The notes under the pieces: generated by a model
What the model was told of the DNA's origin: nothing
Databases searched by the model: none
The model's input: the letters and a program-made list of their open reading frames with translations, nothing else
Origin: Burkholderia multivorans ATCC BAA-247
GTDB taxonomy: Bacteria > Pseudomonadota > Gammaproteobacteria > Burkholderiales > Burkholderiaceae
Assembly: GCF_000959525.1 (NCBI RefSeq)
Contig: NZ_CP009832.1
Span: 3,100,001 to 3,164,000, forward strand
Length of the DNA stretch: 64,000 nt
Direction of reading: 5' to 3'
Position numbers and translations under genes: made by a program
In this document: piece by piece, positions 28,593 to 30,583 of the stretch
Layout of the letters: each line of letters opens with the position of its first letter
Position numbering within the stretch: the first letter of the stretch is position 1

Positions 28593-28620
28593 TTGACACG
28601 CGCCCGCATCCTGGCATAGA
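28593..28620 (+). promoter_or_regulatory. Putative promoter of the leuL-leuA transcript
   Basis: A perfect -35 TTGACA (28593-28598), 16-bp spacer, CATAGA (28615-28620; weak -10). The predicted start, about 28627, is almost at the leader-peptide ATG (28630). Confidence 0.55.
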
Positions 28621-28629
28621 GTTGCCGTC

Positions 28630-28704
28630 ATGCGTTCCTTCCCGAACACCCTCCGAATTACCTCCGGCCGCCTAGCGCGGCCGCTATCGCTACGACTAGC
28701 CTAA
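28630..28704 (+). CDS. leuL: Leucine-rich leader peptide upstream of leuA
   Basis: A 24-codon reading frame, ATG 28630 to TAA 28704, too short for normal gene calling. Five of its 24 residues are Leu (positions 8, 15, 19, 21, 23), and the last four are all encoded by CTA within nine codons. CTA is one of the rarest leucine codons in this GC-rich genome; the neighbouring genes use CTG/CTC almost exclusively. The peptide starts MRSFPNTL and ends LSLRLA. The CTA codons and stop lie within the 5' arm of a strong RNA hairpin, the usual arrangement of an amino-acid attenuator. The symbol is by analogy with enterobacterial leuL. Confidence 0.75.
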
Positions 28705-28736
28705 GGCTGTCGTAGCGCCGTGCGACGTCTGCACGG
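28688..28736 (+). promoter_or_regulatory. Candidate leucine attenuator: mutually exclusive hairpins before leuA
   Basis: Hairpin A: CGCTACGAC (28688-28696) pairs with GTCGTAGCG (28709-28717), extended by AGCC/GGCT around loop TAA. Hairpin B: GTCGTA (28709-28714) pairs with TGCGAC (28721-28726). Hairpin C: CCGTGC (28718-28723) pairs with GCACGG (28731-28736). B shares strands with both A and C, so A+C and B exclude each other, the classical 1:2/2:3/3:4 logic. A ribosome stalled on the CTA codons would occupy the 5' arm of A. Hairpin C lacks an immediate T tract; the nearest T run is at 28774-28778, so termination could be factor-dependent. Confidence 0.6.
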
Positions 28737-28936
28737 TCCCTCCCAGCAGTTCCTCGCAGCACCCTTCTCGCAGTTTTTGCAACCCGAAGTCGTCAGCTTT
28801 CGTCCGTCTATCCGTCGGTCGAATCGCGAAGATCATCCGCATCCGCAGCGCGATCGCGCGCCACGGTGCGAGGCAGCGTCAACCGTCGCTCATGCCATCC
28901 GTCTTCGCTCGCGACTTGAGACCCGAGGTCAAGAAG

Positions 28937-30583
28937 ATGAAGCGCAACCCGCAAGAAAAGTACCGAGCGTTCGAACCCGTCCGCCTCAACGGCCGCAAGT
29001 GGCCGACCCGCACGATCGAGCGGGCGCCGGTGTGGATGAGCACCGACTTGCGCGACGGCAACCAGTCGCTGATCGAACCGATGAGCATCGAGCAGAAGCT
29101 CGAGTTCTTCGAGATGCTGGTCGCGATCGGGTTCAAGGAGATCGAAGTCGGTTTTCCGTCGGCGTCGCAAACCGACTTCGATTTCGTGCGCAAGCTGATC
29201 GACGAGAAGCGCATCCCCGACGACGTGACGATCGAAGTGCTCGTGCAGTCGCGCGAAGACCTGATCGCCCGCACGTTCGAAGCGCTTGAAGGCGTGCCGC
29301 GCGCGATCGTGCATCTGTACAACGCGATCTGCCCGTCGTTCCGCCGCATCGTGTTCGGGATGTCGAAGGACGACGTGAAGGCGCTCGCGGTCGAAGGCAC
29401 GCGCCTCATCAAGGCATACGCGGCCGCGCGCCCGGACACGCAGTGGACCTACCAGTATTCGCCGGAAACCTTCAGCATGACTGAGCTGACGTTCGCGCGC
29501 GAAGTGTGCGACGCGGTCGCGCAAATGTGGCGTCCGACCCGCGACCACAAGATGATCGTCAACCTGCCGGCGACCGTCGAAGCCGCGATGCCGAACGTGT
29601 TCGCCGATCAGATCGAATGGATGGACCGCAATCTCGCGTATCGCGACAGCATCGTGCTGTCCGTCCATCCGCACAACGACCGCGGCACCGCGGTCGCCGC
29701 CGCCGAGCTCGCGCTGCTCGCCGGCGCGGATCGCATCGAGGGTTGCCTGTTCGGCAACGGCGAGCGCACCGGCAACGTCGATCTCGTCACGCTCGCGCTC
29801 AATCTGTATACGCAGGGCATCGATCCGGGCCTCGACTTCTCCGACATCGACGCGGTGCGCCGCGTCGTCGAACGCTGCAACCAGATTCCCGTGCATCCGC
29901 GTCACCCGTACGCGGGCGACCTCGTCTTCACCGCGTTCTCCGGCTCGCACCAGGACGCGATCCGCAAGGGCTTCGCGCAGCAACGCGCGGACGCGCTGTG
30001 GGAAGTGCCGTATCTGCCCATCGACCCGGCCGATCTCGGCCGCAGCTACGACGCGGTGATCCGCGTGAACAGCCAGTCCGGCAAGGGCGGCGCGACGTAC
30101 CTGCTCGAGCGCGGGATGGGCTTTACGCCGACGCGCCGCGTGCAGATCGAATTCAGCCACGCGGTGCAGACGCTCGCCGATGCGTCGGGCGCCGAAGTCA
30201 CCGGGGACGCGATCTGCGCGCTCTTTGCGCGCGAATTCCTCGAAACCGACGGCCCGGCCGCGCGGCACGGCAACGGCGCGCGCTGGCAGAATCGCGAGAT
30301 CGCAGGCGCGTTCGCGGCCGACGCGGCGCCCGAAGCGGCCGTGCAGCGCGCGGCCGCGGCGTTCGCGGCGGCCGCCGGCGCGACGATCGACGTCGCATCG
30401 TGCGAGCACGTGCGCACAGTGGACGGGCGCATCGCCGTGTCGGTCGGCTGCCGCGTCGGCGATGCGCCGCTGCGGCACGGCGTCGGCGTCCATGCCGACG
30501 CGTCGTGCGCGGCGCTCGATGCGGTCGTCAGCGCGATCAATCGCTCCACCTGGCAGCACGCGGACCGGCGCGCGGCCGCCTGA
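28937..30583 (+). CDS. leuA: 2-isopropylmalate synthase
   Basis: Condenses acetyl-CoA and 2-ketoisovalerate, the first committed step to leucine. Length 548 aa. This is the longer actinobacterial/yeast-like LeuA form: opening [21 protein letters not shown] (split) with metal Asp and Arg, [15 protein letters not shown] (metal His), [15 protein letters not shown], and a C-terminal regulatory domain (about 420-540) expected to bind leucine. ATG at 28937 follows GAGGTCAAGAAG. The gene is not next to leuBCD and appears monocistronic. Two controls are likely: feedback inhibition via the C-terminal domain and the upstream leader. Confidence 0.95.

Follow-up and report, generated by a model that had tools for sequence, protein, structure and literature searches.

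The window examined here is a stretch of 64,000 nucleotides (nt) from Burkholderia multivorans ATCC BAA-247 (contig NZ_CP009832.1, positions 3,100,001 to 3,164,000). On its plus strand, to which all window coordinates below refer, it carries leuA (28937..30583), which encodes a 2-isopropylmalate synthase of the TIGR00970 type, and in front of this gene a leader peptide open reading frame (ORF) of 24 codons (28630..28704), of which codons 15, 19, 21 and 23 are CTA. A sigma-70-like promoter ends just upstream of the leader, three predicted hairpins (H1, H2 and HC) lie within it and directly behind it, and an untranslated stretch of about 230 nt separates it from leuA. Based on the conservation of this arrangement, the CTA leader most likely lets the cell sense a shortage of leucine.

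Relatives of leuA were fetched from the best 80 of 548 places and from the best 30 of 158 matching family genomes, one of which is the window. The resulting 110 leuA loci comprise 94 from Burkholderia, Paraburkholderia, Caballeronia and Trinickia (Burkholderia sensu lato, s.l.), 30 of them assigned to that group by similarity, and 16 from Oxalobacteraceae, Pandoraea and Cupriavidus. Some genomes repeat contigs (L086 and L004, for example), so the 94 loci do not represent independent species. The Burkholderia s.l. alignment holds 93 of them (L068, a Caballeronia locus with the leader present, was left out), reducing to 85 distinct loci and to 77 sequences that are distinct in the aligned region.

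All 94 Burkholderia s.l. loci have three or more CTA codons in a leader upstream of leuA. Among the 16 other loci, 13 (Oxalobacteraceae and Pandoraea) carry a promoter-linked CTA leader whose sequence is different. In the remaining three (L067, L073 and L075, including two from Cupriavidus) no promoter-linked CTA leader was found within 620 nt, and only a second leader nearer leuA was present. That a short frame should simply happen to hold CTA codons is refuted by this comparison and has next to no probability, given also the codon bias, the covarying hairpins and the 77 of 200 family genomes matched by a covariance model, all described below. The first-pass annotation, made from the letters of the window, had read the frame as a leucine leader peptide, and the conservation of the frame and its CTA codons across relatives strongly supports that reading.

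The codons themselves carry much of the argument. CTA is rare in this genome, as had been claimed, accounting for 12 of 1275 leucine codons in 23 long window ORFs (chosen by script for high GC content at third codon positions) and for none of the 36 in the window leuA. Over the 85 distinct Burkholderia s.l. loci, window included, 340 of 448 leucine codons in the leaders are CTA, compared with 3 of 2731 in leuA. At the final three regulatory codons, 52 distinct leader ORFs read CTA almost without exception (51, 52 and 52 of 52; the one deviation is CTG), while the arginine codon between the last two CTA codons varies (CGT in 31, CGA in 13, CGC in 7 and AGT in 1). The constancy of CTA beside an arginine codon that changes in its third base indicates that the codon itself is kept, and not just leucine. 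The motif CTANNNCTANNNCTA occurs six times in the 6.3-Mb genome, and the leuA leader is the only one of these sites within a short CTA-rich leader frame. The reversed pattern that served as a control gave 249 matches and, as it includes the common codon ATC, is not a like-for-like comparison; the six copies reflect rarity, not enrichment. The use of a rare codon for the leucines had also been called unusual, which does not hold: CUA is the published control codon of the Salmonella leu attenuator, which became less sensitive when CUG was put in its place (Carter et al., 1986, as described in PMC1183508).

Within Burkholderia s.l. the identity of the leader peptide is high. The conserved sequence might thus chiefly encode a small protein, or be an RNA acting in trans of the peTrpL/rnTrpL kind from Sinorhizobium, rather than a cis regulator of leuA, and a leader RNA that starts at its ATG and acts in trans has a precedent in the description given in PMC7298713. 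Nevertheless, we regard this as very improbable, given the placing of the element. The covariance model R1, searched in 200 family genomes with filters that may lose weak matches, gave one match each in 77 genomes from 5 of 25 genera. It lies 114-266 nt upstream of a listed leuA, on the same contig and strand, in 71 of the 77, and for the remaining six there was no leuA on that contig among the matches listed. The conserved residues moreover coincide with the hairpins and the CTA codons, and the Oxalobacteraceae keep CTA and not the peptide. The R1 score in the window, 136.8 bits, is high by construction; on 30 other loci the model gave two weak matches, both in Oxalicibacterium, with H2 kept.

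The promoter, TTGACA-N18-TAGAGT (28593..28622), agrees with the consensus at 10 of 12 positions and was the sole promoter-like site in a scan of 28500-29000, where shuffled sequences gave a mean of 0.0. Its -10 box ends at 28622, 7 nt upstream of the leader ATG, which places the predicted transcription start at about 28628-28630. The relatives share this spacing. When A2 and T6 are required in the -10 box, every one of the 85 distinct Burkholderia s.l. leaders has such a box ending 6 or 7 nt upstream of its ATG; the spacer measures 18 nt in 83 leaders and 17 nt in the other 2. The distance is 6 or 7 nt in 10 and 8 or 9 nt in 3 of the 13 leaders from the other groups. Transcription is therefore predicted to begin at or next to the leader ATG, and the mRNA of the leader peptide is probably leaderless, in support of the earlier description of the leader as nearly so. 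Leaderless messages have been reported in B. cenocepacia (PMC4603805) and in Cupriavidus metallidurans (PMC7563307).

The three hairpins do not overlap. H1 (28665..28683) has 7 bp and holds the first CTA codon in its loop; H2 (28688..28717), of 9+4 bp, contains the last two CTA codons and has the stop codon in its loop; HC (28718..28736) follows directly 3' of H2. Folded as a single sequence, 28627-28780 gave z = -3.59, with 1 of 200 shuffles folding as well. Across the 77 aligned sequences, one of them the window, H1, H2 and HC are paired in 90.0% of 1870 cells, and shifting the pairing partners 1 to 3 columns out of register drops this to 22-58%. Measured against shuffles that ignore relatedness, the paired cells were matched by 0 of 500, as were the cells changed on both sides (96, compared with 38.4 in shuffles) and the covariation score (0.158, compared with 0.099).

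The three hairpins therefore have compensatory support in the alignment, and the changes can be followed in each. In its short form H1 occurs as GGCCGC-CTA-GCGGCC or, with a compensatory change, as GGCCGA-CTA-TCGGCC, and a further variant is AGCCGC..GCGGCT; it was read sequence by sequence because the alignment misplaced a 3-nt gap within it, and in 5 of the 85 distinct loci that reading gave no stem. In H2 the third base of the arginine codon changes together with its partner in the 3' arm, 45 of 77 sequences being changed on both sides and 6 unpaired. HC occurs as CCGTGC/GCACGG, CCGCGC/GCGCGG, CTGC/GCAG and in longer forms. H1 had been absent from the first-pass annotation. Outside the hairpins, CCCTCCGAATTA at 28649-28660 of the leader is nearly invariant across the group, synonymous positions included.

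These results bear on whether the leader is a classical attenuator of the leuL type, in which a stall at CUA would favour an antiterminator and an intrinsic terminator would otherwise form. The first-pass annotation had proposed such a design, with stems at 28709-28726 and 28718-28736 competing with H2 in a 1:2/2:3/3:4 pattern. The leader peptide with its CUA control codons fits such a system, as do the hairpins that follow it closely, and both H2 and the 28718-28736 hairpin (HC) are present, conserved and supported by covariation. The pattern, however, is not borne out. The stem at 28709-28726, the proposed 2:3 pairing, can be drawn in the window, but over the 77 sequences it is not supported: 74.2% of its cells are paired, and 431 of 500 shuffles were as high, so that no switch between terminator and antiterminator is established. 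Another possible 2:3 pairing, between the H1 3' arm and the HC 5' arm, was judged by eye and is weak in the TCGGCC clade. The conserved hairpins are non-overlapping, and a simple pattern scan for an intrinsic terminator (a hairpin with a U tract) gave no terminator-like site on the plus strand of 28500-29000, consistent with the earlier remark that the last hairpin lacks a U tract. We therefore consider a classical attenuator improbable.

Behind HC lies a C- and U-rich, G-poor stretch (28737..28788) that may be a loading region for Rho. The 78-nt trailer after HC has a median of 29 C and 14 G over the 85 loci, with a median rank of 4.4% among the windows of the locus. Between this C-rich stretch and a further hairpin stands a conserved block, GTCGTCAGC (28789..28797); 80 of the 85 distinct loci have it in the form GTCGTC(A/T)G(C/T). 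The further hairpin, an imperfect one at 28798..28825, was found in the alignment and by RNAalifold. Folding the RNA from the stop codon on alone suggested that the GTCGTC block pairs with the 3' arm of H2. Over the loci with that form of the block (the 5 of 85 without it were left out), 23 of 200 and 52 of 200 shuffles were as good for pairing with the two H2 arms, and these pairings were rejected.

With no terminator-like site in view, the leader might leave transcription running and act on translation, making the start of leuA or, in Paraburkholderia, that of a second ORF more or less accessible. In favour of this, RNAalifold applied to 41 shorter leaders of the Burkholderia/Trinickia type predicts a duplex between ACCUC in the leader and GAGGU at the start of leuA. 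In five Paraburkholderia and Caballeronia loci (L015, L016, L017, L019 and L039), GAGG and ATG, as in GCGAGGGTCAAATGCA, open a second ORF behind a hairpin of the 28798-28825 type, which in L015 ends 22 nt before leuA, as read by eye. However, the duplex between the leader anti-Shine-Dalgarno sequence and the leuA Shine-Dalgarno sequence was not clearly better than shuffles of partners between species (43 of 200 as good, 48 distinct pairs) and was rejected as a candidate, and the Burkholderia rows of the alignment lack an ATG for the second ORF. Translational attenuation is thus a rather unlikely explanation, though a better one than the classical attenuator.

The account that we prefer, and consider probable on the comparative evidence, takes the leuA message to sense leucine at its 5' end, with Rho as the first candidate for the read-out; the sensor as such we regard as all but certain, and the leaderless start as likely. 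Transcription would start on the leader ATG or no more than a few bases away from it, and ribosomes would translate the 24 codons with no Shine-Dalgarno sequence to guide them. Under leucine shortage, the tRNA reading CUA would be left uncharged and the ribosome would stall at one of the four CUA codons, masking arms of H1, H2 or both; when leucine is plentiful, it would reach the UAA and depart, allowing H1, H2 and HC to fold in turn. Rho could then end transcription within the untranslated stretch of about 230 nt before leuA, a process that stalling would counteract. As no intrinsic terminator follows, a Rho-dependent ending of the message is the most likely read-out and our leading candidate, to which we assign a chance a little short of even; control of leuA translation or decay of the message may take its place. 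The start of transcription, the stalling, the read-out and the direction of the response to leucine are what we infer, while the frame, its codons, the promoter spacing and the hairpins are conserved features of the sequences.

Several observations weigh against this account. Of the pairings tested, none through which stalling could alter the fold downstream is supported, leaving the link from stalling to output missing. The C-over-G bias of the trailer is moderate, and the 78-nt window with the greatest excess of C over G lies elsewhere in the locus in 68 of 85 loci. The conservation of the peptide within Burkholderia s.l. exceeds the needs of a simple codon counter. In 20 of 94 loci a looser promoter scan ranks a different hexamer higher, one that lies 8 or 9 nt upstream of the ATG. 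Finally, the hairpin shuffles ignore relatedness, and two of the five whole-structure measures were not above them: 110 of 500 shuffles equalled the number of pairs with a double change or exceeded it, and 201 of 500 did so for further pair types.

In comparison with known systems, the leader shares with leuL of Salmonella and E. coli a leucine leader peptide before a leucine gene, a rare CUA control codon and stalling that is expected to signal starvation. It differs in having no terminator-like site, no supported antiterminator, a probably leaderless leader and a leuA set apart from leuC. In Sinorhizobium meliloti trpL, too, the RNA begins at the ATG of the leader ORF, as is predicted here, although the amino acid is tryptophan instead of leucine and a terminator hairpin is drawn (PMC7298713). 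Translation of the short ORF orf34 in the long leader of Salmonella speF is described as interfering with Rho-dependent termination (PMC6386406). That ORF likewise contains codons for the regulating amino acid. The likeness is one of description only. There the amino acid is arginine, the ORF starts at nucleotide 32 of the message and its translation also frees the speF ribosome site (PMC6386406). The combination seen here, a probably leaderless CUA leader conserved in several genera and followed by no visible terminator, can be regarded as a variation on an already known type.

The gene itself is a clear member of its family, scoring 713.5 bits against TIGR00970 (cut-off 697.4), and the closest leuA sequences among the matches listed are from Burkholderia and 91-94% identical. 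Its start was placed at 28937, which is 15 codons downstream of where the listed ORF has its first in-frame ATG (28892), because the similarity to relatives begins there and a Shine-Dalgarno-like GAGG (28925-28928) lies in front. As far as the gene order was inspected, with ybiB upstream, rpoH further downstream and leuC on another contig, it agrees with the earlier statement that leuA stands alone. No CTA leader came to light in ORF scans that covered roughly 600 to 1200 nt ahead of ilvI, leuC and leuS in this genome.

A second type of leader became apparent nearer leuA in Burkholderiales outside Burkholderia s.l. There, a leucine leader often ending in LPIGC(L/R)A is accompanied by an H-type pseudoknot (a-b-a'-b') just before leuA. 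Counting only pseudoknots with unbroken helices for which no shuffle of 30 was as good, it was present in 13 of the 16 Oxalobacteraceae, Pandoraea and Cupriavidus loci (L065, L066, L069-L072, L075-L079, L081 and L082) and was not found with unbroken helices in L067, L073 and L080. A pattern search fetched 19 further loci, 12 of which were tested, the other 7 not being leuA-leader-like; the pseudoknot was present in 8 of the 12 (L114-L119, L121 and L122, from Burkholderiales), a count to be read with the fact that the pattern itself selects for helix a. Helix a shows compensatory changes, such as GGTTGCC to GGTTAAC together with GGCAGCC to GTTAACC. No pseudoknot with unbroken helices was found in the window locus (L001), nor in L013, L020, L025 and L054. 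In nine Paraburkholderia and Caballeronia loci nothing rose above shuffles except in L019, where one scan gave a GTGGC-type pseudoknot and a later scan scored another pairing higher.

A pseudoknot next to leuA has been reported for Actinobacteria as the LEU element (Seliverstov et al., 2005, PMC1262725), and the Burkholderiales pseudoknot leader looks like a match to that description. The leader in the window has in common with the LEU element a leucine-rich leader ORF before leuA and no obvious terminator, and differs in that no pseudoknot, such as stands beside leuA there, was found in it (PMC1262725). Of eight loci from a plasmid collection, four show the same topology before leuA, those of Nonomuraea, Nocardia, Tsukamurella and Ochrobactrum (L178, L179, L180 and L184); over the actinobacterial loci the count is 3 of 4. 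Its presence before the Ochrobactrum gene suggests that LEU-like elements may extend beyond Actinobacteria.

Taken together with the promoter-linked leaders, this allows us to propose, tentatively and with somewhat less assurance than we attach to the Rho read-out, that leuA of Burkholderiales is under up to two leucine sensors in series. The first would be a leaderless CUA leader at the 5' end with hairpins that do not compete, and the second a CUA or leucine leader close to leuA, accompanied by a pseudoknot of the LEU type that Actinobacteria and some Alphaproteobacteria would have as well; neither would have an intrinsic terminator. Burkholderia proper would have dropped the second sensor, leaving the first to act without an antiterminator, via Rho or translation. 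The mechanism of pseudoknot leaders was left open in 2005, in the account given in PMC1262725, and a comparison of species having one, the other or both of these leaders makes the question testable.

Among the papers listed by a literature search, judged by titles and the beginnings of abstracts, none described a leuA leader in Burkholderia, and the term 'leuA' was not found in the main text of PMC4603805 (start sites of B. cenocepacia), PMC7563307 (C. metallidurans) or PMC2965389. At the gathering score, the only match of the window to Rfam was a tRNA at 19730-19803. With E values up to 1, nine leuA loci gave six matches, all below the gathering score and none in a leader. A 2004 study of proteobacterial attenuators by Vitreschak and others may include beta-proteobacterial leu leaders, which limits any claim to novelty. 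The leader described here is thus a candidate leucine-responsive leader for Burkholderia and near relatives, matched by no Rfam model. Its probably leaderless start and the absence of a visible terminator would make it a clean test case for the effect of a ribosome stalled on a leaderless mRNA on a gene 230 nt downstream.

The same genome carries a second leuA (G000:C3:2545294-2546835, minus strand), linked to ilvC, so that its two leuA types each have a CTA leader. The leader of the second, at about G000:C3:2547018 on the minus strand, reads MTAFSRLSLLLAGAPLRALASARLPR, contains three CTA codons and has TATAGT 7 nt before its ATG; it is predicted to be leaderless as well. For this second type, 99 of 120 genomes gave a match. 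Of the best 30 loci, the genome's own among them, 26 have a leader ORF of this kind with two or more CTA codons upstream of leuA, and in 25 it has three or more. Further leuA copies, on other contigs of two Burkholderia relatives (L134 and L135), have a third kind of CTA leader, which in L134 reads MQAAQPRFSLRLLARFSGLGLRLRAFRLLLS and lies 7 nt behind a -10-like box, as read by eye.

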